The translations under genes were made by a program, and so were the position numbers. Shown here one piece after another: positions 15,611 through 40,645 of a stretch of 64,000 nt of DNA. Under the pieces are notes generated by a model. The model was not told the DNA's origin. It was given only the letters and a program-made list of their open reading frames with translations, and ran no database searches. Positions within the stretch are counted from its first letter, which is position 1; each line of letters starts with the position of its first letter. This DNA comes from Woeseiaceae bacterium (lineage in GTDB: Bacteria > Pseudomonadota > Gammaproteobacteria > Steroidobacterales > Woeseiaceae), in assembly GCA_028289545.1 (NCBI GenBank), contig JANQPG010000107.1, positions 62,001 to 126,000 of the forward strand, given 5' to 3'.

Positions 15611-15639
15611 GCGCGCGCCCTAGAGGCAACGACTACACA

Positions 15640-15701
15640 CGCATACCGTCACAGAGCACTGGGTGCCCCACCTGAAAAGGGGTTGTGCAATGGGGTATGC
15701 G
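15640..15701 (+). ncRNA. structured rpsB leader (probable S2 autoregulatory element)
   Basis: The leader between promoter and rpsB can fold. An outer 8-bp perfect stem pairs CGCATACC (15640-15647) with GGTATGCG (15694-15701). Inside it GCAC (15656-15659) pairs with GTGC (15685-15688) and CCCC (15666-15669) with GGGG (15679-15682). The Shine-Dalgarno CCCGGAG follows at 15711. In E. coli the same interval (t44/tff) is part of the rpsB leader and S2 represses its own operon; the position and nested stems fit that role, but the function here is inferred. Confidence 0.55.
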
Positions 15702-15725
15702 GAGGCTTAACCCGGAGAAACAACA

Positions 15726-19953: not shown

Positions 19954-20735
19954 AGCAGCGGATCGTTACTGCGTTGATTGCGCTTGCGGTGCTGCTGCTG
20001 GTGATGTTCGTGCTGCCGGCGAATGCCGCGAAGGCGTTTATTGGACTGCTGGTCCTCGGCGGCGCCTGGGAATGGTCGGCGTTTCTTGGCGGCGCCAGGC
20101 CGCTGGTTCGCGCCGGGTACGTGTTGTTGATAGCGGTGCTCGTTTTGTTCACCGGTCTTGCGTTGCCGGTCGTGACCGAGCCGATTCTGTTTGCGTCGCT
20201 CGTCTGGTGGCTGCTCGCGCTGATCTGGACCTTCCGCTTCCCCACGCCAATACCCGAACCGCTGCGCTGGCTGTGCGGTGCGTTTGTTCTGTTGCCGCTA
20301 TTTGTAGCGCTGGTGACTCTGTACACGGCCAATCCCGTGACCCTTTTGTTTGCGCTGATCATCGTCTGGGCTGCCGACGTCGGCGCCTATTTTTCCGGCA
20401 AACGTTTCGGCCGCGTCAAGCTCGCGCCGGAAATCAGCCCGGGAAAGACCTGGGAAGGCGTGCTCGGCGGGCTGGTCGTCGTGTCGCTGGTCGCCATAGC
20501 GTTTGTCACCTATCGCGATCTGTCGTACGCCGTGCTCGTGCCGTTCTGCATGGCAGCGGCGGCGTTGTCGATTGTCGGCGATCTGACCGTCAGCATGTTC
20601 AAGCGGACCGCCGGGGTGAAGGACAGCGGCGCGCTGTTTCCCGGGCACGGGGGGATTCTCGACCGTATCGACAGCGTTTCGGCCGCCGCTCCGCTGTTCG
20701 CGCTCGGTCTCGCGTGGACGGGACTGGGCCAATGA
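19947..20735 (+). CDS. cdsA: phosphatidate cytidylyltransferase
   Basis: CdsA makes CDP-diacylglycerol from phosphatidate and CTP, the branch point for all phospholipids. The 262-residue protein is strongly hydrophobic with about seven to eight membrane segments. The family signature region is present: WAADVGAYFSGKRFGR, then PEISPGKTWEG and, near the C terminus, KRTAGVKDSGALFPGHGG with DRIDS. It overlaps uppS. The next conserved gene in pseudomonads would be dxr; instead a short orphan stretch precedes rseP. Confidence 0.95.
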   Translation: MLKQRIVTALIALAVLLLVMFVLPANAAKAFIGLLVLGGAWEWSAFLGGARPLVRAGYVLLIAVLVLFTGLALPVVTEPILFASLVWWLLALIWTFRFPTPIPEPLRWLCGAFVLLPLFVALVTLYTANPVTLLFALIIVWAADVGAYFSGKRFGRVKLAPEISPGKTWEGVLGGLVVVSLVAIAFVTYRDLSYAVLVPFCMAAAALSIVGDLTVSMFKRTAGVKDSGALFPGHGGILDRIDSVSAAAPLFALGLAWTGLGQ

Positions 20736-20869
20736 GGCGTTCAGCGGACATTCAGGTTGGGGGTGAAAGCCTCAATTCTGTTGGAACTGCGCGCCCCCGG
20801 ATAGCTCCAATACGGGATGAACTCGGCGATTCGCCGAGGTTCGGGCGCGATCATAAGGGACGCATTTAG
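20732..20869 (+). other. dxr-less cdsA-rseP gap with a 45-codon orphan reading frame
   Basis: An ATG overlaps the cdsA stop (ATGA), the position where dxr starts in pseudomonad-type clusters, and opens a 45-codon frame ending just before rseP. The predicted peptide (beginning MRRSADIQVGG) is rich in Arg and Gly and shows no DXP reductoisomerase motif. A hairpin lies near its end: CTCGGCG (20822-20828), loop ATT, CGCCGAG (20832-20838), with no T-run. It may be leader RNA for rseP, a deletion scar, or a small gene; the sequence does not decide. Confidence 0.35.
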
Positions 20870-20873
20870 CACG

Positions 20874-22235
20874 ATGGGGACAATTTTCGGCAACGCACTG
20901 GCGTTTATCGTGGCGATCAGCATCCTGGTGGCCGTACACGAGTACGGGCACTACATAGTGGGTCGCTGGTGCGGAATGAAGGTGCTGCGGTTCTCCATCG
21001 GCTTCGGCAAACCCATCTGGATGCGGGTAGGCCGCGGTCCCGATCGAACGGAGTACTGCATTTCGGCGATTCCCCTCGGCGGCTACGTGCGTTTTCTCGA
21101 CAGCCGCGAAGCGGACGTGTCCCCCGAGGACGTCGGCCGTGCATTCGACCAGCGCCCCATTCCGCATCGTATTGCCGTTTTGTTTGCCGGCCCGCTGTTC
21201 AATTTCCTGTTTGCGATCCTCGCCTACTGGGCGCTGTTCGTTTACGGCATCCCAACCGTCGTTCCAGCCGTCGGCGACGTCCAGCCGGCGTCTTATGCCG
21301 ATCGCGCGGGTCTCGAGTACGGCGATCGCATCGTGGCCGTCAACGGCCAGGCCAGCCCTGACTGGGAGACCACGCTGTTGGCGATGCTCGACCAGCTCGT
21401 GGCCGAAGGCCGGGTCGATATGACGCTCGAAAAGAGCGACGGTTCGACAGAACGGGCAACACTGGACGTGGGTGACGATCGCGCGCGTCTCACCGAACCC
21501 GGCATGCTGTTCGACGGGCTCGGTTTTTCGGCGTGGCAGTTTCCGGCCGTCGTGGGCAGCGTCGTCGAGGAGGGCGCTGCGGAGCGCGCCGGTATTCGCG
21601 AGGGCGACCGCATCGTGTCGATCGACGGTGAGCCCGTGCGGCATTTCAACGACCTGATCGCTCTGGTTGCACCGCGCCCCGACGAGGCCGTCGAAGTTGG
21701 CGTCATCCGCGAAACGACACAGAGCGAAGAAACTCTGTCGCTCGTGCTCGGCAGCGCAGAGCGCGACGGCAGGACGGTGGGCATGCTCGGGATCGGCAGC
21801 GCCGAAGCGGCGGGCGACTTCGTTTACCTCAGGAAGTTCGGGCCGCTGGAATCCGTCAGCCGGGCCATCGAGCGCACCTGGGCGTCCACCGTGTTCACCG
21901 TGAAGATGCTCGGCCGGATGCTGACGGGCGACGTGTCGATCAAGAACATCAGTGGGCCGATCAACATTGCCCAGTTTGCCGGCGAGAGCGCTGAGCGCGG
22001 CGTCGATTACTTCCTCGGTTTCCTGGCCATCGTCAGCATCAGCCTGGGGGTTCTGAACCTCCTGCCCGTGCCGGTGCTGGATGGTGGACAGATCGTTTAC
22101 CAGACCATAGAACTTCTCAAAGGCAGTCCGTTGTCCGAGCGGGCACAGATTATCGGTCAGCAGGTCGGCATCCTTGCCCTGATCATGCTGATGAGTTTCG
22201 CTTTCTACAACGATATTGCGAGAATACTGGGCTGA
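20874..22235 (+). CDS. rseP: site-2 protease RseP (RIP metalloprotease)
   Basis: RseP cuts anti-sigma factor RseA inside the membrane during sigma-E activation, and clears signal peptides. ATG at 20874 gives 453 residues (E. coli 450). The zinc site is HEYGH (H22, E23, H26) in the first helix, and the second motif is PVLDGGQIV near the C terminus. Two PDZ domains lie in between (about residues 115-195 and 205-290), the second containing GIREGDRIVSIDG. A start at 20817 is possible but would add 19 polar residues. Its target rseA is in the rpoE operon at 56 kb. Confidence 0.95.
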   Translation: MGTIFGNALAFIVAISILVAVHEYGHYIVGRWCGMKVLRFSIGFGKPIWMRVGRGPDRTEYCISAIPLGGYVRFLDSREADVSPEDVGRAFDQRPIPHRIAVLFAGPLFNFLFAILAYWALFVYGIPTVVPAVGDVQPASYADRAGLEYGDRIVAVNGQASPDWETTLLAMLDQLVAEGRVDMTLEKSDGSTERATLDVGDDRARLTEPGMLFDGLGFSAWQFPAVVGSVVEEGAAERAGIREGDRIVSIDGEPVRHFNDLIALVAPRPDEAVEVGVIRETTQSEETLSLVLGSAERDGRTVGMLGIGSAEAAGDFVYLRKFGPLESVSRAIERTWASTVFTVKMLGRMLTGDVSIKNISGPINIAQFAGESAERGVDYFLGFLAIVSISLGVLNLLPVPVLDGGQIVYQTIELLKGSPLSERAQIIGQQVGILALIMLMSFAFYNDIARILG

Positions 22236-22260
22236 TGCGCCCGCAGGGGGACACACTACG

Positions 22261-24693
22261 ATGACGCGTCTGGTTCACTCTTATTATTACTCGCGGTTGC
22301 TCCGCCACGTGCTGTCGGTTGCGGCCATGCTCACTATCGTGGCGAGCGGCCCGGCGGCGGCGGCTGACGACGAAGCCGAATTTGTCGTCCGCGACATGCG
22401 TGTCGAGGGTTTGCAGAGAATCTCCGAGGGTACGGTATTCAACTATCTGCCCGTGAATATCGGCGACGAAATCGATCGAATTCGAATTCGCGAGGCGATC
22501 GAGTCGCTGTACGGTCAGGGGCTGTTCGACAACATCGAGATGCGCCGCGAAGGCGATACGCTTGTGATCGCCGTGCGCGAGCGTCCGTCGATCGAAAGCT
22601 TCGAGATCGATGGCAACAAGGACATCAAGACCGAGGACCTGACCGAATCCCTGCGCGGCGTCGGTCTTGCCAAGGGCCGCACTTTCGACCGCTCCGTGCT
22701 GGACAACGTAACGATGTTCCTCCGCGAGCAGTACTACGATCGCGGCAAGTACGCTGTCAAAATCAGCACGCAGGTCATCGACCGCCCCAACAACACCGTA
22801 CAGATCCGAATCGATATCGACGAAGGCAAGCGGGCCAAGATTCGTCAAGTCAACATCGTCGGCAACACGCAGTTCAGCGATAAACAGATCCGCGAGGGTT
22901 TTAATCTCGATACGGCGAACTGGCTGTCGTGGATTCGCCAGGACGATCGCTACGAGAAACAGGGGCTTGAAGGCGATCTCGAGACGTTGCGGTCGTTCTA
23001 CATGAATCGGGGTTACGCCGACTTCGACGTTGCATCGACGCAGGTTGCGATATCGCCGGACAAGAAAGACATCTACGTCACGATCACGATTCGCGAGGGC
23101 GATCGCTATACGGTCTCCGACGTCCGCCTGGTCGGCGAAATGGTGATCCCCGAGCAGTTTCTGAAAGCGCTGATCCTTGCGCGGCCCGGTTCCACGTTCA
23201 ACCAGGCCATGCTGACGCAGACCTCGGAGCTCATGTCATTGCGCCTCGGCGAGGAAGGCTACGCAAACGCCGAGATCAATCCGGTCTGGGACCTCGATCG
23301 CGACACCCTGGAGGCCGAAGTGACGTTCTTCGTCAATCCGTCCAACCGGGTGTACGTGCGCCGCATCAACTTCAACGGCGTCGACGAAATCGATGACGAA
23401 GTCCTGCGCCGTGAAATGCGCCAGCTCGAGGGTTCGTATCTGTCGAACATTCTGGTCGACCGTTCGCGAATTCGTTTGCAGCGTCTGCCCTACATCGAAA
23501 ACGTCGACATCAGCAACTCGCCGGTTCAGGGCAGCCCCGACCTGGTCGACGTCGACGTGGATCTTGAATACCGGATGCCCGGGCAATTCTCGGGCGGCAT
23601 CGGTTACTCCGAGGCGCAGAAGCTGCTCTTGAACGGCAGCATTGTGCACACCAATTTCCTCGGCAGCGGCAACCGTGTTGCGCTGGAGCTGAATTCCGGC
23701 CGTTTCTCGAAGCTCTACAGTCTGTCGCATACCGATCCGTATCGGACAATGGACGGCATCCGCCGCACGGTCGCGCTGACCTACCGCGACATAACGCAGT
23801 TCACGTCGGCAACATCGGATTTTTCGACCGAGACCATTGGCGCGACGGTTGACTACGGTTATCCGATCGGAGAGTTCCAGACGCTGACCTTCGGCTTGAG
23901 CTACCAGAGCGCGGAACTGCTGTCGTCGAGTAGTAGCACGCTGCAGGCGCAGGAGTGGGTGCAGAACAACGGCAACCAGTTCACGACCGAAGGCAGCAGC
24001 AACATCGAGTTTTTTGGGACGGAATTCGAAACTCTGGATTTGCTGGCGGGCTGGATCTACGACAGCCGCAACCGGGCGCTGTTTGCGACCCGCGGCACCC
24101 GCCAGCAGCTGTTTCTTGGCGCGACGATTCCCGGCGTGAGCGACGTGGAGTATTTCACTGCGCGCTACAATTTGACCAAATATCAGCCATTATTCGGCCG
24201 TTTTGCGCTGCGCTGGAACGTCGAGCTGGGTTATGGCGAAGCCATGGGCGAAACGACGGCGTTACCACCGTACAAGCAGTATTTTGGTGGCGGACCGCAG
24301 TCGATACGCGGTTATCGCGAGTCTTTCCTCGGTCCACGGGACAGTTTCGGCAACCCCTATGGCGGTAACGTGTTGGTTGCGAGCCAGTTAGAGCTTATAC
24401 TCCCGCTCCCGGAGAAATGGGCCAGGCAGGCCAGAGCAACCCTGTTTTACGACGCGGGCAACGTGTTCAACACCGGCGAGGTCGAGTTTTTCGACCGGCT
24501 GGGTAGCCCGGTCGAATACAAGCCGGATTTTCAGGAACTTCGGACATCGGTCGGTATTGGCGTACAGTGGTTGGCGCCTCTCGGGTTATTCCGGTTTAGT
24601 TACGCTTATCCGTTGAACGCGTACAGCGGCAACGACCGGTTTTTCGGGGATGAACTGGAACGGTTCCAGTTCTCCATTGGACAAGCGTTTTGA
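22261..24693 (+). CDS. bamA: outer membrane protein assembly factor BamA
   Basis: BamA is the essential Omp85 insertase of the outer membrane. The ATG at 22261 gives 810 residues with a signal peptide ending near AAAADD (about residue 36). Five POTRA domains follow (about residues 40-440; first one FVVRDMRVEGLQRIS), then a 16-strand barrel. The barrel carries the conserved loop-6 region with GGGPQSIRGYRE (the VRGF-like IRGY motif) and ends in the aromatic-terminated strand FQFSIGQAF. It overlaps skp by one base. Confidence 0.96.
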   Translation: MTRLVHSYYYSRLLRHVLSVAAMLTIVASGPAAAADDEAEFVVRDMRVEGLQRISEGTVFNYLPVNIGDEIDRIRIREAIESLYGQGLFDNIEMRREGDTLVIAVRERPSIESFEIDGNKDIKTEDLTESLRGVGLAKGRTFDRSVLDNVTMFLREQYYDRGKYAVKISTQVIDRPNNTVQIRIDIDEGKRAKIRQVNIVGNTQFSDKQIREGFNLDTANWLSWIRQDDRYEKQGLEGDLETLRSFYMNRGYADFDVASTQVAISPDKKDIYVTITIREGDRYTVSDVRLVGEMVIPEQFLKALILARPGSTFNQAMLTQTSELMSLRLGEEGYANAEINPVWDLDRDTLEAEVTFFVNPSNRVYVRRINFNGVDEIDDEVLRREMRQLEGSYLSNILVDRSRIRLQRLPYIENVDISNSPVQGSPDLVDVDVDLEYRMPGQFSGGIGYSEAQKLLLNGSIVHTNFLGSGNRVALELNSGRFSKLYSLSHTDPYRTMDGIRRTVALTYRDITQFTSATSDFSTETIGATVDYGYPIGEFQTLTFGLSYQSAELLSSSSSTLQAQEWVQNNGNQFTTEGSSNIEFFGTEFETLDLLAGWIYDSRNRALFATRGTRQQLFLGATIPGVSDVEYFTARYNLTKYQPLFGRFALRWNVELGYGEAMGETTALPPYKQYFGGGPQSIRGYRESFLGPRDSFGNPYGGNVLVASQLELILPLPEKWARQARATLFYDAGNVFNTGEVEFFDRLGSPVEYKPDFQELRTSVGIGVQWLAPLGLFRFSYAYPLNAYSGNDRFFGDELERFQFSIGQAF

Positions 24694-25247
24694 TGAATGG
24701 ACAGTTTATGATTTTTGCAAAACTTCAGCTGGGTAAAGTTGCGGCAGCCGCAGTACTGCTGTGTGCTTTCGCTCTGCCGGCAGGCGCCCAGGAACTCAAG
24801 ATCGGCGTCGTCAACGTACCTGCGCTGATGGATCGTGCGCCGCAGACCAAGGCTGCCATGGATGCGTTGCAGGAAGAATTTGCACCGCGTCAGCGCGAAA
24901 TACTCGCCAAACAGACCGAGCTTCAGGAGCTGGTCGAGAAGGCGCAGAAAGACGCCGAAGTGATGAGCGAAGCGGAACGCCGCGCTCTCGAAAAGAGCAT
25001 TCGCGATTCGCGCCGCGAAGTCACGCGACTCGACACGGAATTCCGCGAAGATCTCAACCTGCGGCAGAACGAAGAGCTGGGCAAGCTACAGCGCTCCCTG
25101 CTTTCGGAAGTGCAGGCGTACGCCCAGGGTGAAGGCTACGACATAGTCGTTGGTGACGGCGTGTTGTTCGCCTCGACCGCGGCGAACATTACTGACGAGG
25201 TTCTGCGCGCAATCGAAGCGAGCTATCAGGCGACGAGCTCGCGCTAG
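24693..25247 (+). CDS. skp: periplasmic chaperone Skp/OmpH
   Basis: Skp holds unfolded outer-membrane proteins in the periplasm and hands them to BamA. The product is 184 residues from the ATG that overlaps the bamA stop, or 179 from ATG 24708, which is the tidier signal-peptide start (IFAKLQLGKVAAAAVLLCAFALP). Mature sequence begins near QELKIGVVNVPALM. The long Glu/Lys/Arg-rich stretch (about residues 60-140) forms the coiled-coil tentacles of the family. Directly followed by lpxD. Confidence 0.93.
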   Translation: MNGQFMIFAKLQLGKVAAAAVLLCAFALPAGAQELKIGVVNVPALMDRAPQTKAAMDALQEEFAPRQREILAKQTELQELVEKAQKDAEVMSEAERRALEKSIRDSRREVTRLDTEFREDLNLRQNEELGKLQRSLLSEVQAYAQGEGYDIVVGDGVLFASTAANITDEVLRAIEASYQATSSR

Positions 25248-25252
25248 CCGCC

Positions 25253-26266
25253 ATGCCGGAAAGTCTGGGCGCGCTCGCAAGCCGCTTCGGCTGCGAACTC
25301 AAGGGCGATCCGGATACCGTCGTCAGCCGCGTTGCCACTCTGGCCAACGCCGATAGCGACGCTCTGAGTTTTCTTGCCAGCGACGCATACCGGCCGCAGC
25401 TTGCCAATACCCGGGCTGCGGCTGTTGTCCTGCGGCCGGCTGATCTGGAGCTGGCGCCGACCGCGGCGCTCGTATCTTCCAACCCGTATGCGAGCTACGC
25501 GCGTATGGCGGCAGTGCTGCATCCGCCCGCGCCGAGTGCCGCGGGCGTACATCCCTCCGCCGTTGTGCACGAGTCCGCCGAACTCGCGGACGACGCGAGT
25601 ATTGGCCCCAACGCCGTTATCGGCGAGCGCGTGCGAATAGGGTCCAGGACCATCGTGCACGCGGGCGCTTTTGTCGGTCCCGACTGCGAACTCGCCGACG
25701 CTTGCGTGGTGCACGCCAATGCGTCACTCGTTCGCGCTGTCCGTCTGGGGGCGCGGTCGATTGTTCACTCGGGCGCCGTCATCGGTGCGGACGGGTTCGG
25801 CAACGCCATGAGCGACTCCGGCTGGGTCAAAGTGCCGCAAGTCGGCGGCGTGCGTGTTGGCGCCGACGTGGAGATTGGAGCCAATACGACCATCGACTGT
25901 GGCGCCGTCGACGATACGGTGATTGAAGACGGTGTGCGCATCGACAACCTCTGCATGATCGCTCATAACGTACACATCGGAGCGCACACGGCCATAGCGG
26001 CGATGGTCGGCATCGCCGGGAGCACTCGCGTCGGCAAGCGCTGTATGTTTGCCGGGCAGGCAGGTGTGGTTGGCCACGTGTCGATTTGTGACGACGTGAT
26101 CGTGAGCGGTCAGGCCGTCGTCTCGAAGGACATCCGCGAACCCGGCACCTATGCCGGTAGCTTCACGGCCGAGAAGGCCGGCGAGTGGACGCGCCGGGTC
26201 GCGCGCTTCAAGCGATTGGGTGCGCTGGCCGATCGTGTTCGCAAACTCGAAAAGGGCGGCGCGTGA
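25253..26266 (+). CDS. lpxD: UDP-3-O-(3-hydroxyacyl)glucosamine N-acyltransferase
   Basis: LpxD adds the second hydroxyacyl chain from acyl-ACP in lipid A synthesis. The 337-residue protein has an N-terminal uridine-binding domain (to about residue 100), then hexapeptide repeats of a left-handed beta-helix (from GVHPSAVVHESAELADDASIGPN), and a C-terminal helix. The catalytic His is in the CMIAHNVHIG stretch, and GADGFGNAMSDSG is also conserved in LpxD. Five-base gap from skp and a 4-base overlap with fabZ indicate one operon. Confidence 0.96.
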   Translation: MPESLGALASRFGCELKGDPDTVVSRVATLANADSDALSFLASDAYRPQLANTRAAAVVLRPADLELAPTAALVSSNPYASYARMAAVLHPPAPSAAGVHPSAVVHESAELADDASIGPNAVIGERVRIGSRTIVHAGAFVGPDCELADACVVHANASLVRAVRLGARSIVHSGAVIGADGFGNAMSDSGWVKVPQVGGVRVGADVEIGANTTIDCGAVDDTVIEDGVRIDNLCMIAHNVHIGAHTAIAAMVGIAGSTRVGKRCMFAGQAGVVGHVSICDDVIVSGQAVVSKDIREPGTYAGSFTAEKAGEWTRRVARFKRLGALADRVRKLEKGGA

Positions 26267-26706
26267 GCGAAGTGCTCGACCAGTTGCGGATTCGCGAGCT
26301 CATCCCGCATCGCTATCCGTTCCTGCTTGTCGATCGGGTACTGGCATACGTGCCGCACGAGAGTCTCAGCGCCGTCAAGAACGTCAGCGCTAACGAACCT
26401 TTCTTCCAGGGGCACTTTCCCGAACGTCCGGTCATGCCCGGCGTGCTGATCGTCGAGGCGCTTGCGCAGGCGGGCTGCCTGCTGTCGCAGCTGAGTCACG
26501 ATCATGACGGTAAGGGAGAAAGGCCGCTGTATGTGCTTGCCGGAGTCGACAATGCGCGTTTCAAGCGCCCCGTCACACCCGGAGACAGTCTCGCGCTCGA
26601 CATCGAGGTCGAGAAAACCCGCCGCGGCCTTTGGTGGTATCGTTGCGAGGCGAGCGTCGACGGCAACCTGGCGGCCTCGGCGACGATTATGAGTGCACCG
26701 GGCTGA
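26263..26706 (+). CDS. fabZ: 3-hydroxyacyl-ACP dehydratase FabZ
   Basis: FabZ dehydrates 3-hydroxyacyl-ACP in fatty acid elongation and competes with LpxA/LpxD for hydroxyacyl-ACP. The GTG at 26263 overlapping the lpxD stop (GTGA) gives 147 residues. The frame extends further upstream, but that stretch lies inside lpxD. The hot-dog helix has the catalytic His in [19 protein letters not shown], with Glu two turns later, and [11 protein letters not shown] at the N terminus is typical. Neighbours lpxD and lpxA fit. Confidence 0.96.
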
Positions 26707-26739
26707 GTGCACGCGGTTGAGTGCATGCTCGGAGACCCA

Positions 26740-27510
26740 ATGATTCATCCAACAGCGCTTATCTCGGAAAAGGCCGAACTTGCGGACGACGTAGAGATCG
26801 GACCGTACGCCGTCATCGGCGACAACGTGAAAATTGGTCGCGGCACGCGCATCGACAGTCACGTCGTGGTCAACGGTCCGACGACCATTGGCGAGAACAA
26901 CCGGATCTACCAGTTTGCTTCGATCGGCGACGACCCGCAGGACCGCAAGTATCGGGGTGAGCCGACGCGGCTGGAGATCGGCGACAGCAACACAATACGT
27001 GAATACTGCACGATCAGCCGCGGCACCGTGGACGACGCCGGCGTCACGCGCCTCGGCAACGACAACTGGATCATGGCCTACGTGCACATTGCGCACGACT
27101 GCATGATCGGCAATCACACGATCATGGCGAACAACGCAACGCTTGCGGGTCACGTCCACGTCGGCGACTGGGCTATTTTTGCGGGTTTCTCCGGCGCGCA
27201 TCAGTTCTGCAGGATCGGCGCGCATGCCTTTCTGGGAATGTATGCGGGAGCCAACCGCGATATTGCGGCCTACGTAACGTGTTCCGGCGTGCCGGCGAGG
27301 CCCAGGGGGATCAACAGCGAGGGACTCAAGCGGCGCGGTTTCGATGCGGCGCAGATTCGCAATATCAAGAACGCGTATCGCCTCGTGTTCCGCGAGAATC
27401 GGAAGCTGGCCGACGCCATCGACGAGTTGTCTTCGCGGGTCGACGACGAGCCCGAGCTTCGCCTGTTTCTGGAGTCTCTCCAGCAGTCGGACCGCGGCAT
27501 CGCGCGGTAG
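26740..27510 (+). CDS. lpxA: acyl-ACP--UDP-N-acetylglucosamine O-acyltransferase
   Basis: LpxA catalyses the first acylation of UDP-GlcNAc in lipid A synthesis. ATG 26740 has GGAG five bases upstream and begins MIHPTALISEKAELADD, the usual first hexapeptide coil; 256 residues against 262 in E. coli. The catalytic His lies in IAHDCMIGNHTIMANNATLAGHV. The helical C-terminal domain follows GINSEGLKRRGF. A frame start at 26707 would add 11 residues before the conserved start and is less likely. Confidence 0.96.
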   Translation: MIHPTALISEKAELADDVEIGPYAVIGDNVKIGRGTRIDSHVVVNGPTTIGENNRIYQFASIGDDPQDRKYRGEPTRLEIGDSNTIREYCTISRGTVDDAGVTRLGNDNWIMAYVHIAHDCMIGNHTIMANNATLAGHVHVGDWAIFAGFSGAHQFCRIGAHAFLGMYAGANRDIAAYVTCSGVPARPRGINSEGLKRRGFDAAQIRNIKNAYRLVFRENRKLADAIDELSSRVDDEPELRLFLESLQQSDRGIAR

Positions 27511-27529
27511 GGTTAACAGGCCCTAGAAG

Positions 27530-28672
27530 ATGCGCATCGGCATCATTGCCGGCGAAGCCTCGGGCGACCTGCTTGGCGCAGGGCTGATTCGGCAGATTCG
27601 CTTGAGGGTCCCGCAAGCTCACTGTGAGGGTGTTGCCGGCCCGGCAATGATTGCGGCGGGCTGTGAAGCGCTTGCGGACGCCGAGGAACTCGCCGTCATG
27701 GGGCTGATCGAGCCCCTGAAGGAGATCCCGCGATTGCTGCGCCTTCGCGGCCGGCTGATCCGCCACTGGATAGAAAACCCACCGGACGTGTTTGTTGGGA
27801 TCGACGCACCCGATTTTAACCTGGGCCTCGAGCGGCGCCTGCGCTCGGCGGGAATACCTACCGCTCACTATGTGAGCCCCTCGGTCTGGGCCTGGCGTCA
27901 GTGGCGCATCAAGACGATTCGCCGCGCCGTCGATCGTGTGTTGTGCCTGCTGCCGTTCGAGAAGCAGTTCTATGACGAACAGGGCGTCGACGCCGTGTTT
28001 GTTGGCCATCCCAAAGCGACGGAATTGTCGCCGGACTACGACGCCGCGGCGCTCCGCGAGCGGTATTCGATCCCCGCTGCCGCGAGTGTCGTGGCGCTGT
28101 TGCCCGGCAGCCGTATGAGCGAGGTGGAGCGGCTGATACCCGAGTTCGCCGGGGCGGCAGCGCAATTGCTCGAGGATGCGCCGGAACGACGTTTTGTGCT
28201 TCCGGTTGCGACGCCGAAGCTCCGCACCGTCGTGGAGCGGACGGTGTCGGCCGCCGGCATTGCGGAGTCGGTCCGATTGCTTGACGGATGTTCGCTCGAT
28301 GCCATGCGGGTTGCGGACGTCGTGCTGGTCGCGTCGGGAACGGCCGTGCTGGAGGCCGCGTTGCTCGGCAAGCCCACGGTTGCCGCTTATCGGGTTGCGC
28401 CGCTGACAGCGCGTATCGTGCGTGCGCTCGGTCTCCTGAAAGTGCAGCACTACACGCTGCCGAATCTGCTGACCGAAGAGCCCCTGGTTCCCGAGTTCAT
28501 TCAGGAGGAGGCCACGGGTGAGAATCTCGCGCGGGCGGTTCAGAGCCTCCTCGATGATCCGGAACGCCGTGCCGGCATCCGCGACGGTTTTGCTAAACTG
28601 CGCACCAGCCTCGCGCTCGACGCCGACGAGCGGGCAGCGGCCGCCGTTCTCGAGCTTGCCAAGTCCGAATGA
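27530..28672 (+). CDS. lpxB: lipid-A-disaccharide synthase
   Basis: LpxB is a GT19 glycosyltransferase that joins UDP-diacylglucosamine with lipid X to form the lipid A disaccharide. The 380-residue product opens with IGIIAGEASGDLLGAGLI, then GIDAPDFNLGLE, HYVSPSVWAWRQWRI and LLPGSRMSEVERL, all characteristic. The C-terminal nucleotide-binding half has SGTAVLEAALLGKPTV. It lies 20 bases after lpxA, completing the lpxD-fabZ-lpxA-lpxB block. Confidence 0.96.
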   Translation: MRIGIIAGEASGDLLGAGLIRQIRLRVPQAHCEGVAGPAMIAAGCEALADAEELAVMGLIEPLKEIPRLLRLRGRLIRHWIENPPDVFVGIDAPDFNLGLERRLRSAGIPTAHYVSPSVWAWRQWRIKTIRRAVDRVLCLLPFEKQFYDEQGVDAVFVGHPKATELSPDYDAAALRERYSIPAAASVVALLPGSRMSEVERLIPEFAGAAAQLLEDAPERRFVLPVATPKLRTVVERTVSAAGIAESVRLLDGCSLDAMRVADVVLVASGTAVLEAALLGKPTVAAYRVAPLTARIVRALGLLKVQHYTLPNLLTEEPLVPEFIQEEATGENLARAVQSLLDDPERRAGIRDGFAKLRTSLALDADERAAAAVLELAKSE

Positions 28673-28705
28673 GGCTTTTCGGCAACCCACGTATTTCGAG
28701 GAGTC

Positions 28706-29332
28706 ATGCAGAAGTCATTGTCATGCACAAGCCGTCCAGGGAGTGTTGAGCGCCGCGGTGTTGCCGGTGTGGACGAAGCGGGGCGCGGGCCGTTGGCGGG
28801 CCCGGTGGTTGCGGCCGCCGTCATCCTCGACACCCACGCCGTGCCCGATGGCTTGAGGGATTCGAAGAAGCTGAGCGAGCGGCGCCGAGTCGAGCTTGCC
28901 GAGGTCATTCGTCGTTCAGCGCTGGCCTGGTCCGTTGCGTGGGCCGATCGCGCCGAAATCGATTCGCTGAACATACTGTCGGCCACGTTCCTGTCGATGC
29001 GTCGGGCCATCCTCGGCCTGAATCGCTCGCCGACTCACGTGATGGTCGACGGCAACCGACTGCCGAACCTCGAGTTCTTCGGCCGACAGATCGACGGCAC
29101 GGCAATCGTTGGCGGTGACGACCAGGTGCCCGCCATCAGCGCCGCATCGATACTTGCGAAGACAACCCGCGACGACATCATGCGCGGCTACGATCGCCTG
29201 TATCCCGACTATGCGTTTGGTCAGCACAAGGGTTACGGCACGCGCCTGCACCGGGAGCGGCTGCAGGCGCACGGTCCGTGCAATGAACATCGGCTGAGCT
29301 TTGCACCGGTAAGACAGGCGCTCAGTCAATGA
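28706..29332 (+). CDS. rnhB: ribonuclease HII
   Basis: RNase HII nicks DNA at embedded ribonucleotides and RNA-DNA junctions. The 208-residue protein has the active-site stretch [19 protein letters not shown] (Asp-Glu), then [11 protein letters not shown], and the third and fourth acidic positions around MVDGN and AKTTRDDIM. Start ATG 28706 has GAGGAG six bases upstream; the first 15 residues are variable. It overlaps dnaE by four bases. Confidence 0.95.
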
Positions 29333-32300
29333 GTGCCTCGCGCTTTGTGCACCTGAGTGTGCACACGGAATATTCGCTCGTCGACTCGACCGTGCGAATA
29401 CCGGCGTTGATGCAGGCGCTTAGGGCGGACGGCATGCCTGCCGTCGCGTTGACCGACCAGAACAACCTGTTTGCGATGGTCAAGTTCTACACCAAAGCCA
29501 TAGCCGGCGGCATCAAACCCCTCATCGGCGCGGACCTGAGGCTGGTCAACGAAGAGGACGCCAACCGGCCGCATCGCTTGCTGTTGTACTGCCAGAACAA
29601 CGTGGGCTACCGGCGGCTTTCCGAACTGCTGACCCGTGCCTACATCGAAGGCCAGGTCCGCGGCGAGCCGCTCGCCCGTCGCGAGTGGCTCACGACGGAG
29701 AGCGTCGAGGGTCTCCTGGCGCTGTCGGGTGGTCTCGGCGGTGACGTCGGGCAGGCACTCGCCTCGGGACAGACAGACCTTGCGCGCGAGCGGCTGGATC
29801 ACTGGCGTCGTTTGTTTCCCGAACGTTTCTACCTCGAGCTGACCCGCACCGGCAGGCCGCAGGAAGAAGACTGCGTACAGGAATCGCTCAGGCTGGCGAG
29901 CGAGACGGGCACGCCGGTGGTCGCCAGCAACGACGTGCGTTTCATCCGCAAAGAGGATTTCAACGCCCACGAGGCCCGCGTGTGTATTCATGAGGGGCGG
30001 GGGCTCGCTGATCCGGACCGGCCGCGCGCTTACAGCGCCGAGCAGTATCTGAAAAGCAGTGAGGAAATGTGTTCGCTGTTCGCCGACGTTCCGGAGGCCA
30101 TCGAAAACTCGCTGGAGATTGCAAAACGCCTGAATCTGGATCTTGAACTCGGCAAGAGCGTGCTGCCTGCATTCCCGGTCCCCGAGGGACAGGACGAGGC
30201 CGAGTTCCTGACGCGCACAGCCGAGGCGGGCCTCGAGGAGCGCCTGGAGCCGATCCTGGCCGGGCGCGACGACGACGTTCAAGGCGTGAAGTCGGTTTAT
30301 GTGGACCGGCTTGCCACCGAACTCGACGTCATCAAGGGAATGGGTTTTCCGGGGTACTTCCTGATCGTCGCCGACTTTATTCGCTGGGCTCGCGATAACG
30401 GCGTGCCGGTCGGGCCGGGCCGCGGCTCCGGCGCCGGGTCGCTGGTGGCATGGGTACTCGGCATCACGGACCTCGACCCGATCGAGCACGATTTGCTGTT
30501 CGAGCGTTTTCTGAATCCCGAGCGCGTATCGATGCCGGACTTCGATGTGGACTTCTGCATGGAAGGCCGCGACCGTGTCATCGACTACGTTGCGGAACGC
30601 TACGGACGCGAGCGGGTTGCGCAGATTATTACCTTCGGCACGATGGCGGCCAAGGCCGTCATACGCGACAGCGGCCGGGTACTTGGACAGCCTTACGGCT
30701 TTGTGGACCGCATTGCGAAGCAGGTGCCTTTCGAAATTGGCATGACGCTCGACAAAGCGCTCGATCAGTCCGACGAGCTGAGCGAAATGTATCGCAGCGA
30801 CGAGGAGGTTGCGGCGATCATCGACCTGGCTCGCTCGCTCGAAGGCCTGGTGCGCAATGCCGGCAAACACGCGGGCGGCGTCGTCATCGCACCCGACCAG
30901 CTGACCGACTTTACGCCGCTCTACTGCGAGGAGGGCGGTGTCAACGTCGTAACCCAACTCGACAAGGACGACGTCGAGGCCGCGGGGCTGGTCAAGTTCG
31001 ACTTCCTTGGCTTGAAGACGCTGACGATCATCGATTGGTCGGAGCGCATCATCAACCAGCAGGACGACCGCGATAGTCGCGAGCGTTTTGACGTCGGCCG
31101 GATACCGCCGCGCGATCCCGCCACGTTCCGGCTGCTGCAGAGCACCAAGACCGCGGCCGTGTTCCAGCTCGAATCGAGCGGTATGCGCGACCTCATCGGC
31201 CGCCTCAAACCCGACCAGTTCGACGACCTCGTCGCGCTGGTTGCTCTGTTTCGGCCCGGCCCCCTGCAATCGGGAATGGTCGACGACTTCATCGAGCGCA
31301 AACACTCGCCGGATGCCGGCGACATCGACTATTTGCACCCGGACCTGAAGCCCGTGCTGGAGGCCACCTACGGCGTCATTCTGTACCAGGAACAGGTCAT
31401 GCAGATTGCCCAGGTACTGGCCGGCTACACGCTGGGCGGCGCCGACCTCCTGAGGCGCGCGATGGGCAAGAAGAAGCCCGAGGAGATGGCGAAGCAGCGC
31501 GAAATCTTCGTCAGCGGTGCCGTCGCTCGCGGCGTGAACGAAGCCAACGCAACGCGGATCTTCGATCTCATGGAGAAGTTTGCGGGTTACGGCTTCAATA
31601 AGTCGCATTCGGCGGCGTACGCTGTGCTGTCCTATCAGACCGCGTACCTGAAAGCCCACTATCCGGCCGCGTTCATGGCGGCGGTCATGAGCGCCGACCT
31701 CGACCATACCGACCGCCTCGTGACGCTCAAGGACGACTGTCGCCAGCTCTGTCTCAAGCTGGTACCGCCCGACGTCAATCGATCGGCCTATCATTTCAGC
31801 GTGGCAGACGAAAAGACGATTCTCTACGGACTCGGTGCGATCAAGGGTGTTGGCCGGGCGGCCGTGGAGGCGCTTATCGAGGAACGTGAGCGCGGCGGTC
31901 CGTACGCCGATCTCGCCGAGTTTTGCCGCCGCGTCGATGCCGACAAGCTGAATCGGCGAACCCTGGAGGCGATGATCAAGTCGGGTGCGTTCGACGGTTT
32001 TGACGATACCCGCCGCGGGCTGATGCAGCAGGTCGGATCGGCGCTCAAAGGGGCCGAGCAGGCCGCCCGTGCCGCCGCCGCAGGGCAAAACGACATGTTT
32101 GGTCTCGAAACGCCGCCTCCGGCGATCGTCGAGGAAACGCGCGCCCCCGAGATGAGCGAATGGCCCAAGCTCGTGCTACTGCGTAATGAAAAAGAGGCGC
32201 TGGGCCTGTACCTGACCGGCCATCCTTTCGACGAAGTGCGGCATGACGCCGGTTTTTTTGTCGATCGCAAGCTTGGCGACTTTGCCAAGGAGCCGGCGCC

Positions 32301-32853
32301 AAAAACGGCAAGCGGCGAGCGTGACTATTCGAGGGGGCGCCGTGAAGCCACCGTCGCCGGCTTGATCGTGGAATTCAAGAAACGCGGCAATCGGGTCAGC
32401 GTCGTCATCGACGACGACACCGGGCGCATGGAGATTGCGCTGTTTTCCGAGGCGTACGAGGAGTTTCGCGACCTGCTGGTCAAAGAGGAAATTGTGGTTG
32501 TTAGCGGCGGTCTTCGGTACGACGATTTCATCGGCGGCTGGACGCTGAACGCGAGGTCGGTGGAGCCCATCGACCGGGTAATCGAGGCTCAGGCCCGTCA
32601 CATGCTGCTTCGCCTGTCGCCGAACGGGCAGGGTACCGCGCTGTTGACCGAGCTGCAGCGGCTGCTCAAACCGTACCGCAACGGCAGCTGCGACGTAGCC
32701 GTTCAGTATTGCGGCAGCGACGCCTCGGCGCGCCTGGCTCTCGGGGCCGAGTGGAGCGTCCGCCCGAGCCGCGAACTCAGGGACAAGCTCGACGAACTCC
32801 TGGGGCACGGTAACGTCAAGCTGCAGTACGCACGTGGGCGGGAAATCATGTAA
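29329..32853 (+). CDS. dnaE: DNA polymerase III subunit alpha
   Basis: This is the replicative polymerase catalytic subunit, 1174 residues (E. coli 1160). The N-terminal PHP domain begins [17 protein letters not shown]. The palm has catalytic aspartates in MPDFDVDFC (about residues 404-408) and [16 protein letters not shown] upstream. The tandem helix-hairpin-helix region lies near [16 protein letters not shown], followed by an OB fold ([25 protein letters not shown]) and a C-terminal tau-binding region. The start ATG overlaps the rnhB stop. A very long reverse-strand frame opposite it is a composition artefact. Confidence 0.97.
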
Positions 32854-32934
32854 TGTCCCCGCTTTATGCGCCTTGGCAAGACGACCATCAGTGGCTCTGA
32901 AATCATGCGAATTAACGACTCAGGACACTAGCCT

Positions 32935-33894
32935 ATGGACCTCAAGTTTCTCGACTTCGAACAGCCGATTGCGGAACTCGAAGCAAAAATCGATGAGCTG
33001 CGGTACGTCGGAGACGATTCCGAGATCAACATCAACGAAGAGGTGGCCCGGCTCAAGAGCAAGAGCGAGTCGCTGACCCGGAGCATTTTTTCCAAGCTGA
33101 CGGCGTGGCAGATTGCGCAGGTTGCGCGCCACCCGATGCGTCCCTATACCGCTGACTACGTGAAGGCGCTCGCCGCCGATTTCCAGGAGCTCCACGGCGA
33201 TCGGATGTATGCCGACGATCCGGCGCTGATCGGGGGGATCGGTCGCATCGACGGCCGCGCCGTCATGCTCATTGGACATCAGAAAGGCCGCGATACCAAA
33301 GAACGCGTGCGCAGGAATTACGGCATGCCCAAGCCGGAGGGTTATCGCAAGGCGCAGCGGCTCATGCGGCTCGCCGAAAAATTTGCGTTGCCCATCGTTA
33401 CGCTGATCGATACGCCGGGCGCGTATCCCGGCGTGGGCGCTGAGGAACGCGGCCAGAGCGAGGCCATTGCGCAGAGTCTCTACCAGATGTCGCAGTTGAA
33501 AACGCCGATTCTAAGTATCGTTATCGGCGAGGGCGGTTCCGGCGGTGCATTGGCGGTAGGCGTGAGCGATCGGCTGCTGATGCTGCAGTACGGCATCTAC
33601 TCGGTGATCTCTCCGGAAGGATGCGCCTCGATACTCTGGAAAAGTGCGGACAAGGCGGAAGAGGCCGCGGAGGCCATGCGGATTACGGCCGAGCATCTCG
33701 AAGGTTTCGGACTCGTCGACGAAGTACTGGAAGAGCCGCTTGGCGGGGCGCACCGTAATCCAGCAGCCATGGCGGAGCTCATGCAAAACGCCATTGGCCG
33801 GCATCTCGACGCGCTGTCGAATCTGCCCATCGAGCAACTGCTCGAGGAACGACAACGCAGGCTGGACGCCTTCGGCGCCTTTCGAGAGGTCTGA
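32935..33894 (+). CDS. accA: acetyl-CoA carboxylase carboxyltransferase subunit alpha
   Basis: AccA with AccD transfers carboxyl from carboxybiotin to acetyl-CoA, the first committed step of fatty acid synthesis. The 319-residue protein matches E. coli length. Recognisable segments are [64 protein letters not shown] and [10 protein letters not shown] (oxyanion-hole glycines), and [15 protein letters not shown]. It shares one base with tilS at the stop. Confidence 0.97.
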
Positions 33895-35195
33895 TGCCGC
33901 CTGCAGGCGCCAGCGTCGAGCGCCTTGTCGAGCGGCTTGAGGAACTGGCTCTCGAGCTGGGCAAGCCCGGCTGCTGTCACCTGGCCTTCAGCGGCGGGCT
34001 CGATTCGACGCTGCTCTTGAATCTGCTGACCGAAGCGTGGCCCGGTCGCCTGCTCGCCGTTCACGTCGACCACGGTCTGCACCCTTCGTCGCGGCACTGG
34101 GCGGACCGCTGCGAAGCCGAAGCCGGGCGGCTCGGCGTCGAGTTCCGGCGTATCGAAGTGGCTGTCGATCGCGACTCCGGTATCGGCGTCGAGGCGGCGG
34201 CGCGGAAAGCACGTTATGCGGCAATGGCCGAGTTGCTACGGCCCGGGGACTGGTTGCTGACGGCACATCATCTGGACGACCAGCTTGAAACGCTGCTGTT
34301 GAATCTGCTGCGCGGCAGCGGTCCGGACGGCCTCGCGGCGATGCCCGAGTATCGTCGCTTCGCCAACGGCTGGCTGGTGCGTCCGCTACTCGGGCAGTCT
34401 CGCGCGGTACTCGAGGATGAAGCCCGGCGCCGGAACCTCACGTGGATCGACGATCCCGGGAATTTTGTTCAGCATTTCGATCGCAACTACCTGCGCAGCC
34501 AGGTGGTTCCCGTGCTGCGTGAGCGCTGGCCGGATCTCGACGCCCGTCTCGGCGTGACGGTCGAGCGGGCGAGCGAAGCCAGCGAACTCTTGCGGGACCT
34601 CGCCGCCATTGACCTGCGCGGGCTGGGTGAGCCTCAGACCCTGGACCTGGGCGGGCTCAAGGCGCTCTCGCCGGCACGGCGGCGCAACGTGATCCGCCAC
34701 GCGCTCCGGGAGCTGCAACTGCCACTGCCGCCGGGTCGCATGCTCAGCTCGCTCGCCGCTGCGGTGGTCGATGCCGCCGACGACCGCGCGCCGCACGTCG
34801 CCTGGGCCGGCGCCGAAGCGCGGCGGTATCGCGGGCGACTGTATCTGATGCGGCCGCTTGAGCCCGAGCCCTCGGGCACCATCGCCGTGCGCGAGAGCCG
34901 CGTTGTGCTGCCGACGGGCCTGGGTGAACTGACTATCGTCGGCGGTTCCGCCGATTCGCTCAGCGTTGCGTGGCGCAAGGGCGGCGAGCGTCTGCGGCTC
35001 TACCCGGGCGGGCCCGCGCGCAAACTCAAGACACTGTTGCAGGAGCGCGGCATCGTGCCATGGATGCGTAACCGGTTACCGCTCATCTATCGGCAGGGCG
35101 AACTGGTTGCCGCGGCGGACTGCCTGGTTGCGCGCGAGGCCGGCGGCAAGCCCGTGGTCGACGTCAACTGGACCGGGCATCCGCCGCTGCACTGA
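33894..35195 (+). CDS. tilS: tRNA(Ile)-lysidine synthase
   Basis: TilS converts C34 to lysidine in the CAU-anticodon isoleucine tRNA so that it reads AUA. The 433-residue protein has the PP-loop ATP motif SGGLDST (residues 33-39), HVDHGLHPSSRHWAD and TAHHLDDQLETLLLNLLRGSG, then the mid-domain and the C-terminal TilS domain with WRKGGERLRLYPGG. The accA-tilS order is standard. About 170 bases of non-coding sequence follow before pyrG. Confidence 0.95.
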   Translation: MPPAGASVERLVERLEELALELGKPGCCHLAFSGGLDSTLLLNLLTEAWPGRLLAVHVDHGLHPSSRHWADRCEAEAGRLGVEFRRIEVAVDRDSGIGVEAAARKARYAAMAELLRPGDWLLTAHHLDDQLETLLLNLLRGSGPDGLAAMPEYRRFANGWLVRPLLGQSRAVLEDEARRRNLTWIDDPGNFVQHFDRNYLRSQVVPVLRERWPDLDARLGVTVERASEASELLRDLAAIDLRGLGEPQTLDLGGLKALSPARRRNVIRHALRELQLPLPPGRMLSSLAAAVVDAADDRAPHVAWAGAEARRYRGRLYLMRPLEPEPSGTIAVRESRVVLPTGLGELTIVGGSADSLSVAWRKGGERLRLYPGGPARKLKTLLQERGIVPWMRNRLPLIYRQGELVAAADCLVAREAGGKPVVDVNWTGHPPLH

Positions 35196-37028
<1,833 letters not shown>

Positions 37029-37071
37029 GGTCCGCGGGCTTCTTTCCAGGGAACTGCAATAGGGTAATACG

Positions 37072-37905
37072 ATGCAGCTCGATCGTTACGAGGTAGGCAA
37101 CGACAAGCCTTTCTTCCTGATTGCCGGCACCTGCGTGATTGAAAGTGAGGCAATGGCTATCGACACGGCGGGCACGCTCAAGTCCGTGTGCGACGAACTC
37201 GGCATTCCGCTGATCTACAAGTCATCGTTCGACAAGGCGAACCGCAGCTCTCAGAACAGCTTTCGCGGCCCGGGAATGGAAGAGGGGCTGCGGATACTGG
37301 GAGAAGTGCGGCGGCAACTGGGCCTGCCCGTGCTGACCGACGTGCACGAGGACACGCCGATGAGCGAGGTGGCCGAGGTTGCCGACGTTCTGCAGACCCC
37401 GGCGTTCTTGTGTCGTCAGACCAACTTCATCTTGCGTGTCGCCGCGGCCGGCAGGCCGGTAAACGTCAAGAAAGGCCAGTTCCTGTCGCCGTGGGAAATG
37501 CAGAATGTCGTCGACAAGGCGCGGTCAACCGGCAACGAGCAGATCATGGTGTGCGAGCGTGGCTTCAGCTTCGGTTACAACAACCTCGTTTCCGACATGC
37601 GCAGTCTCGCCGTGATGCGCGCCACGGGTTGCCCCGTGGTTTTTGACGCAACACATTCCGTGCAGCTGCCGGGCGGTAAAGGCTCGGCGTCGGGAGGGCA
37701 GCGGGAATTCATACCGGTGCTCGCGCGGGCGGCTACCGCCGCCGGTGTGGCCGGGCTGTTCATGGAAACGCACCCCGAACCCGAAAAGGCCCTGAGCGAC
37801 GGACCCAATGCGATGCCGCTGGCGCGGATCGCCGATCTGCTCGGGACCCTCAAGCAGATCGACGCCGCGGTAAAAGCGGGAACCTGGCTCGAGGACGAGC
37901 TATAG
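37072..37905 (+). CDS. kdsA: 3-deoxy-8-phosphooctulonate synthase
   Basis: KdsA condenses phosphoenolpyruvate with arabinose 5-phosphate to make KDO 8-phosphate for the LPS inner core. The 277-residue TIM-barrel protein shows [62 protein letters not shown] and [11 protein letters not shown]. The usual IAGPCVIES appears here as IAGTCVIES, a Pro-to-Thr change near the active site that is unlikely to abolish activity. Flanked by pyrG and eno as in many gammaproteobacteria. Confidence 0.95.
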
Positions 37906-39261
<1,356 letters not shown>

Positions 39262-39308
39262 GCTGTTGCAGCGGAGCGCCAGGATAAAAGCGTGAGGGGA
39301 CGGGTACG

Positions 39309-39596
39309 GTGAATCTTCGATGGCTGACAGCGGGGTTGCTGCTGCTGGCTCTGCTATTGCAGGGTGAGCTGTGGTTCTCCGACGACGGCTATCGCAAGAC
39401 GCTCGACTTGCGCGACACCGTTGCCGAACAGCGCAGCATGAACGCCGGACTCAAGGCACGCAACGCGGCGCTCGACGCTGAGGTGATCAACCTCAAGGAG
39501 GGCGTCGAAGCGGCCGAGGAGCGCGCTCGCAACGATCTTGGCCTGATCGGCGAAAACGAAACCTTCTATCAGGTCGTCGACGCCGGTCCGTACTGA
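39309..39596 (+). CDS. ftsB: cell division protein FtsB
   Basis: FtsB joins FtsL and FtsQ in the divisome and helps activate septal peptidoglycan synthesis. The 95-residue bitopic protein starts at GTG, has one membrane helix (residues 5-21, WLTAGLLLLALLLQGEL) and a short coiled coil (about 30-75) ending in the RNDLGLIGENETFYQ motif typical of FtsB. It follows eno as usual. In most relatives ispD comes next, but truD follows here after five bases. Confidence 0.93.
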   Translation: MNLRWLTAGLLLLALLLQGELWFSDDGYRKTLDLRDTVAEQRSMNAGLKARNAALDAEVINLKEGVEAAEERARNDLGLIGENETFYQVVDAGPY

Positions 39597-39601
39597 CGGC
39601 A

Positions 39602-40645
39602 ATGCCCGCAACCGAGGCGCGCGCGCACGGCGAAGCGCTGTTTTCCGCTTGCATTCGTTCGCGCCCCGAAGACTTTCGGGTCACCGAGCAGCTGGGTTTC
39701 GAGCCGGACGGCAACGGCGAACACGATCTCCTGCTTCTGGAAAAGACCTCGACCAATACGGAATGGCTGGCACGGCAGCTTGCGCGCTTTGCGGGGGTGA
39801 GCGCCCGGGACGTCGGCTACTGCGGTCTCAAGGACCGCCACGCAATCTGCCGGCAGTGGTTCAGCGTGTATACGCGCGGCGCGCGCCCGGACTGGTCCGG
39901 ACTGGCTCTGGAGGGCGTGCGCCTGATTCAGGCTAGCCGGCATCGGCGCAAGTTGCGTCGCGGCTCTCATCGCGGAAACCACTTTCGGATCCGACTGGCC
40001 CGGCTGTCGTCCGTGCCGTCCACGGCTGAACTCACGGCCAGAATCGACGCCATTGCCGCGCGCGGCGTGCCGAACTACTTTGGGCCGCAGCGGTTCGGGC
40101 GAAACGGCGAAAACCTCGAACTCGCGGCGGCGCTGTTTGCTGGCGCAAAACTCCGGCGAGACAAGCGCGGCTTCGCAATTTCCGCCGCACGTGCGCGGAT
40201 CTTCAACGCCATCCTGAGCCATCGGGTTGGGACCGGGACCTGGGAGCGGATACTGCCCGGAGAACTCGCAAATCTCGACGGTTCCGGCAGCGTCTTCGAG
40301 GTGCAGGCGATCGACGACGAGATCGAGCGGCGCGTGCGGGCGTTCGATATCCATCCCACGGGGCCGCTGTGGGGCACATCCGGGTCGAGCGAGACATCGG
40401 CGGAGGTGGCCGCCATAGAGGCCGCCGTAGCGTCAGAGTTCGGGGTGCTGACCGAGGGTCTGTGCGCGGCTGGAGTGTCGGCAGCGGTCCGGCCGTTGCG
40501 AGTGCGGCCTTCCGCCCTGGGGTTGCGGCGCGACAAAAGCTCCGTCGAACTGACGTTCTGGCTGCCTAAAGGTTCGTTTGCGACGGCACTTCTGGCCGAG
40601 TTCGCCGACGCGGAAGACGCCGCTGCTGCCCGCCAAGGTCGCTGA
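39602..40645 (+). CDS. truD: tRNA pseudouridine(13) synthase TruD
   Basis: TruD isomerises U13 in tRNA-Glu. The 347-residue protein carries the catalytic-Asp motif YCGLKDRHAICRQWFSV near residue 80 and the second family block NYFGPQRFGRNG. The TRUD insertion domain lies between. In E. coli the order is ftsB-ispD-ispF-truD-surE; here ispD and ispF are missing and truD abuts ftsB. The 3' end faces the Smr gene. Confidence 0.94.
   Translation: MPATEARAHGEALFSACIRSRPEDFRVTEQLGFEPDGNGEHDLLLLEKTSTNTEWLARQLARFAGVSARDVGYCGLKDRHAICRQWFSVYTRGARPDWSGLALEGVRLIQASRHRRKLRRGSHRGNHFRIRLARLSSVPSTAELTARIDAIAARGVPNYFGPQRFGRNGENLELAAALFAGAKLRRDKRGFAISAARARIFNAILSHRVGTGTWERILPGELANLDGSGSVFEVQAIDDEIERRVRAFDIHPTGPLWGTSGSSETSAEVAAIEAAVASEFGVLTEGLCAAGVSAAVRPLRVRPSALGLRRDKSSVELTFWLPKGSFATALLAEFADAEDAAAARQGR

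Follow-up and report, generated by a model that had tools for sequence, protein, structure and literature searches.

Probable replacement of the methylerythritol phosphate pathway by a mevalonate gene cluster with a fused HMG-CoA reductase-mevalonate kinase in a Woeseiaceae lineage

We analyzed a 64,000-nucleotide stretch of DNA from a Woeseiaceae bacterium (hereafter the window, meaning the whole of that stretch; GenBank assembly GCA_028289545.1), in which dxr, ispD and ispF, three genes of the methylerythritol phosphate (MEP) pathway, are missing from the sites where related genomes carry them. We hold it very likely that this lineage lost the MEP pathway and makes isopentenyl diphosphate (IPP) and dimethylallyl diphosphate (DMAPP) by the classical mevalonate pathway, encoded by a single cluster on another contig (C38) of the same genome. 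The original prediction, made from the window alone, had proposed that the lineage dropped the MEP route and that mevalonate genes might have replaced it, and the genome searches agree with it on both counts. They also went beyond it, as MEP loss proved common to 49 of 49 searched genomes of the genus and to several other families of the order, and the 3-hydroxy-3-methylglutaryl-CoA (HMG-CoA) reductase (HMGR) and the mevalonate kinase (MVK) proved to be fused. A swap of MEP for mevalonate is a known kind of event; what is new, and the most interesting part, is the fused bifunctional enzyme.

Contig C42, which holds the window, belongs to a 5.07-Mb genome with a completeness rating of 100% and 0.9% contamination. 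Profile searches of this genome gave no match to dxr (PF02670), ispG (PF04551), ispH (PF02401) or ispF (PF02542), and the same profiles do score in genomes of the order that have MEP genes. A search of the genome for intact copies of dxr, ispD and ispF at other sites, which would speak for relocation, found none. The genome encodes four GHMP kinases, three of them in the mevalonate cluster and the fourth beside the gene of a bifunctional aspartokinase-homoserine dehydrogenase (thrA), a position from which it is probably thrB, so that no GHMP kinase is left for ispE. Across the 80 genomes searched, dxr was found in 12, ispG in 13, ispH in 12 and ispF in 12, all outside the genus of the window, and none of the four was found in any of the 49 genomes of that genus. 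The MEP-bearing families of the order in this sample were f2, f4 (one of two genera), f7, f9, f10, f11 and f14. For f7, whose genome is 82% complete, dxs, ispG and ispH were found, and dxr, ispF and a true ispD were not; MEP genes are present in G037, where a full ispD was not found, and in G039, from another family, an ispD-like match scores an intermediate 86.7 bits.

The two sites in the window, with their flanking genes, are the following (window coordinates):
19195..19953, + strand, uppS, undecaprenyl diphosphate synthase, which consumes isoprenoid precursors (Pfam PF01255, 275 bits)
19947..20735, + strand, cdsA, left flank of the vacated dxr site (Pfam PF01148, 183 bits)
20736..20873, no strand, 138-base interval, the position of dxr in MEP-bearing relatives (junction measured, relatives' loci compared)
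20874..22235, + strand, rseP, right flank of the vacated dxr site (Pfam PF02163, 228 bits)
37963..39261, + strand, presumably eno, conserved neighbor of ftsB (present in 11 of 12 ispF loci of relatives)
39309..39596, + strand, ftsB, left flank of the vacated ispD-ispF site (Pfam PF04977, 72 bits)
39597..39601, no strand, five-base interval, the position of ispD-ispF in MEP-bearing relatives (junction measured, relatives' loci compared)
39602..40645, + strand, truD, right flank of the vacated ispD-ispF site (Pfam PF01142, 202 bits)

Both junctions are as originally described. The cdsA gene ends at 20735 and the conserved start of rseP is the ATG at 20874 (residue 20 of the listed open reading frame), leaving 138 bases, and ftsB ends at 39596, five bases before truD starts at 39602. 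An alternative in-frame ATG of rseP at 20817 would reduce the first gap to 81 bases; for most homologues of rseP the alignment starts near residue 20 of the listed frame. The expected arrangement, with dxr beside uppS-cdsA-rseP and ispD-ispF between ftsB and truD, is the one found in relatives: all 12 loci with dxr (L108-L119) have the order uppS-cdsA-dxr-rseP, and ftsB before with truD after occurs in 8 of 12 ispF loci, the others having either ftsB with no match to truD (L143, L145) or being contig-edge pieces with a single flank each (L146, L147). L143 and L145 both belong to family f9, in which ispD-ispF follow ftsB with no truD match in the stretch, unlike the other two-flank families. 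The names of the neighboring genes bamA, eno and surE are those that we presume them to bear. Using the dxr genes of 12 relatives as queries (three in wrong frames, with lengths off: L111, L113 and L116), no dxr remnant was evident in the 138-base cdsA-rseP interval, no match having an E-value better than about 0.5 if one wrong-frame query is set aside; the queries from L117 and L119 run on out of frame into cdsA, and their matches there were disregarded.

The mevalonate cluster (locus L097, C38:7815-14189) is on a separate contig from the window and comprises mvaS, idi, the HMGR-MVK fusion, a phosphomevalonate kinase (PMK)-like gene and mvaD:
C38:7815-9365, + strand, HMG-CoA synthase (mvaS), with both Pfam domains (N and C) over cut-off
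C38:9371-10036, - strand, type I Idi (idi-1), TIGR02150 153 bits (cut-off 105.8)
C38:9952-12174, - strand, HMG-CoA reductase-mevalonate kinase fusion of 740 residues, TIGR00532 and TIGR00549 in one frame
C38:12159-13178, - strand, PMK-like GHMP kinase, TIGR01220 85.5 bits (cut-off 165.7)
C38:13227-14189, - strand, MvaD, TIGR01240 257 bits (cut-off 171.35)

The nearest solved structures of the HMG-CoA synthase are HMG-CoA synthases, and those of the PMK-like kinase are GHMP kinases, the Lin0012 protein being the best, followed by mevalonate and phosphomevalonate kinases. For the residue types that we take to be catalytic, at positions read from alignments, Glu/Cys/His of HMG-CoA synthase are conserved in 10/10 sequences and Lys/Ser/Arg/Asp of MvaD in 14/14; in Idi, two Cys are kept in 20/20 and the column guessed to be His varies (14 His, 5 Asn, 1 Ser). 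From these assignments we infer a pathway in which HMG-CoA synthase would make HMG-CoA, the HMGR domain of the fusion would reduce it to mevalonate and the MVK domain would phosphorylate the mevalonate, after which the PMK-like kinase would add a second phosphate, MvaD would decarboxylate the product to IPP and type I Idi would convert IPP to DMAPP, for consumption by uppS and others. Joining an ATP-driven kinase to the reductase may also pull the reversible reductase reaction toward synthesis.

In the fusion, a class II HMGR part (TIGR00532, 365.8 bits, cut-off 259.95, residues 2-384) and an MVK part (TIGR00549, 234.1 bits, cut-off 163.05, residues 436-713) share the same frame, with the HMGR domain at about 1-421, the MVK domain at about 434-733 and about 12 residues in between. 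The Glu/Lys/Asp/His of HMGR and the Lys/Glu/Glu/Asp of MVK are invariant in 51/51 fused proteins; in the MVK loop one serine column varies (29 Ser, 17 Gly, 5 Ala) and the next column is Ser in 51/51. The nearest solved structures of the reductase domain are the class II reductases 9v7y and 1qax, with which the motifs of the four catalytic residues align; we take 1qax to be the Pseudomonas mevalonii enzyme. Those two are standalone proteins (423 and 428 residues), whereas here a kinase domain follows about 12 residues on.

To assess how widespread the fusion is, we screened 247 genomes of the order that were at least 90% complete, and obtained a single match across both domains in 97, of which G057 and G066 end short within the kinase. 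Two more genomes had both halves in one frame and six had only part of the fusion; most of the rest gave no or a weak match, and three f10 genomes had a standalone reductase with 45-47% identity. At G119:C50:30182-32378 the HMGR and MVK halves are adjacent in different frames, as in a split gene or a frameshift. Outside the order, 370 genomes drawn evenly from the class yielded the fusion in six, as well as G436, where the kinase and only the end of the reductase lie at a contig edge. Among 21 fetched two-domain loci, mvaD, the PMK-like gene and idi were also found in 13, 12 of these in one run, and mvaS in 10 (f1, f6, f159). One-run clusters occur in families f1, f5, f6, f8, f51 and f159. In G254 (f1) idi is not beside the cluster; of the contigs from f116 one is short and the other has PMK on the opposite strand; and in f12, f13 and f15 only HMGR-MVK-idi were found together, with one weak PMK match in f12.

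A quick, unrooted tree of 77 HMGR domains, including 57 fused rows (51 distinct genomes and six repeated loci) and some very long rows (L213, L212, L006), placed all fused rows on one side of a single branch with a Shimodaira-Hasegawa-like approximate likelihood ratio (SH-aLRT) support of 96, adjoining standalone class II reductases. This topology fits one fusion event, whether spread by transfer or by descent. Standalone class II reductases close to the fused ones were seen at L233 (G220), L197, L198, L203 and L204; of the genomes with such reductases, G220, G443, G453 and G589 have ispG and G531 (L197) has only a 25.9-bit ispG fragment, and these enzymes perhaps serve mevalonate breakdown. 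Five genomes of the same genus as the window (G002, G013, G016, G022 and G023; L005, L007, L008, L011 and L013) have, in addition to the fusion, a standalone HMG-CoA reductase. The tree shows hardly any difference between the standalone reductases of L011 (G016) and L012 (G032, of another family), suggesting transfer or cross-binning.

We then compared the presence of the fusion with that of ispG in 157 genomes, the second 80 of which were hand-picked and weighted to carriers of HMGR or the fusion: ispG is present in 1 of 74 fused genomes (G310) and in 34 of 83 others, the remaining 49 of which are without ispG, and since the genomes are related these counts are not independent events. Of the 49, 27 are less than 90% complete, mostly of the genus of the window, and were unscreened for the fusion (fusion-length frames do occur in several of them); three (G006, G114, G436) show only part of the fusion; 17 are genomes of the class in which the match is to a reductase on its own or is kinase-like and weaker, including G531, which was counted as ispG-less with its fragment below cut-off; and the last two are G097 and G253, both of the order.

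Several observations weigh against the proposed replacement. Neither the fusion nor ispG turned up in two genomes of the order, G097 (99% complete) and G253 (94%). The pathway genes searched run from HMG-CoA synthase to Idi. Two enzymes of the cluster score below their NCBIfam cut-offs, HMG-CoA synthase with 162.8 of 360.35 bits for TIGR01835, of which it would at best be a divergent member, and the PMK-like kinase with 85.5 of 165.7 bits for TIGR01220; because of this, these two steps rest on Pfam, solved structures, residues and position. The genome is a 110-contig assembly, and its weak matches to dxs and ispD exceed the Pfam cut-offs (21.2 and 27). Finally G310, a member of another order, combines the fusion with dxr, dxs, ispD, ispF, ispG and ispH, so the fusion does not force MEP loss. 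Its gene order is canonical, uppS-cdsA-dxr-rseP-bamA and eno-ftsB-ispD-ispF-truD (L314-L333, L258; 1.83 Mb of about 2.6 Mb searched). The mevalonate cluster of G310 is on a 77-kb contig (L218, G310:C4:22000-38000) and its ispG on a 6.3-kb contig. The first 20 kb of the 77-kb contig have a GC content of 0.55, against about 0.6 in most stretches, but GC does not mark this contig as foreign, because C8 (0.50) and C11 (0.53) begin lower still. G310 is either a dual-pathway genome or one with a mis-binned contig.

We advance only tentatively, at somewhat less than even confidence, a broader account of these distributions: that a single HMGR-MVK fusion arose in Gammaproteobacteria, that within this enzyme mevalonate goes straight to the kinase, making the reductase one-way, that the cluster displaced MEP in many families of the order and in some outside lineages, and that G310 represents a stage before MEP loss.

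The low PMK score leaves room for a modified, archaeal-type mevalonate route, in which a phosphomevalonate decarboxylase and an isopentenyl phosphate kinase (the latter outside the searched set) would act and the PMK-like protein would do something else. MvaD does match NF040704 (139.6 bits), although under the cut-off of 475, and it is over the cut-off of the classical TIGR01240 family; the Lys, Glu, Ser, Asp and Lys columns of the PMK-like kinase are conserved in 16/16 sequences, or in 15 with one gap; and its best solved match, Lin0012, is a Listeria protein of the PMK family. We regard the modified route as improbable. Still less probable is that the fused reductase is catabolic, breaking mevalonate down, with isoprenoids obtained by import or another route. 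The name of TIGR00532, to which the HMGR belongs, does say "degradative", and standalone relatives occur in genomes that have ispG (G220, G321, G443, G453, G589), but here HMGR is fused to MVK and clustered with PMK-like, MvaD and Idi genes, as suits synthesis, and the genome has no other known route to IPP.

Relocation, by which dxr, ispD and ispF would have moved elsewhere in a genome whose MEP pathway still works, could draw on the weak dxs and ispD matches, and we consider it very unlikely. The dxs match is a single partial one of 24.6 bits in a 326-residue frame, compared with about 392-414 bits for true dxs (13/80 genomes), and the two ispD matches score 30.1 and 28.3 bits, compared with 185-242 bits for true ispD (11/80 genomes), so that all are partial and at least 150 bits below true ones; dxr, ispF, ispG and ispH are moreover missing both from this complete-rated genome and from the whole genus sample. 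As candidate genes these matches were rejected on score, partial coverage and the occurrence of similar matches in most genomes: with true genes counted in, dxs-family matches occur in 58/80 genomes and ispD-family matches in 75/80, and each family scores in 13 of 14 control genomes. Given this partial coverage and wide occurrence, the matches are read as other thiamine-diphosphate enzymes and nucleotidyltransferases.

That assembly gaps or binning losses conceal the MEP genes, as the 110 contigs might suggest, can be dismissed almost entirely, since the window runs unbroken through both sites and shows them closed, 79 of 80 named loci share the closed cdsA-rseP junction, and the four-gene absence recurs in 49/49 genus genomes. 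In those 79, cdsA and rseP are 19-197 bases apart, too close for dxr, and the 80th has no cdsA; the 80 loci are the best of 190 confirmed matches to the window rseP and are skewed to near relatives, and their labels include Woeseiaceae, Chromatiales and Nevskiales (metagenome-assembled genomes).

Loss of MEP with replacement by mevalonate, which we favor, has precedents. PMC9803151 describes Legionella and Coxiella, whose mevalonate use the original prediction had named, as Gammaproteobacteria that have mevalonate genes and lack MEP genes, and the replacement here is of the same kind; those are intracellular pathogens, whereas the present genomes are metagenome-assembled Woeseiaceae and others with a fused HMGR-MVK. 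Replacement of MEP by mevalonate is reported for other bacteria too, and some, such as Streptomyces and Mycobacterium marinum, have both pathways (PMC13001223); G310 seems alike in having both routes, whereas the genome of the window and 73 of 74 tested fused genomes lack ispG. MvaE of Enterococcus faecalis is a fusion of thiolase and HMG-CoA reductase (PMC5764709), and is like the present protein a natural bifunctional mevalonate-pathway enzyme with a bacterial HMG-CoA reductase. MvaE joins non-consecutive steps, whereas here HMGR is joined to the next enzyme, mevalonate kinase, and Pfam gives only HMGR and GHMP kinase domains in the fusion, with no thiolase domain. Among the matches listed in searches of the open-licence literature, we found no report of an HMGR-MVK fusion or of mevalonate use in Woeseia, the sole paper with both Woeseia and mevalonate being a sponge microbiome survey, and no earlier report of the group with this swap.

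A large part of one gammaproteobacterial order appears to depend on mevalonate. Fosmidomycin inhibits DXR, and mevalonate-dependent lineages should be insensitive to DXR inhibitors of this kind; surveys that presume MEP across Gammaproteobacteria would misread them. The order has MEP and mevalonate families side by side, even within f4, which opens the swap of an essential pathway to study. Channelling could be tested simply with a natural fusion such as this one, which joins consecutive enzymes at the committed step, and the fusion might also serve as a part for making isoprenoids in laboratory strains. Elsewhere in the window, a t44 RNA at 15618-15711 scores 70 bits, above the Rfam gathering score, and is ordinary.

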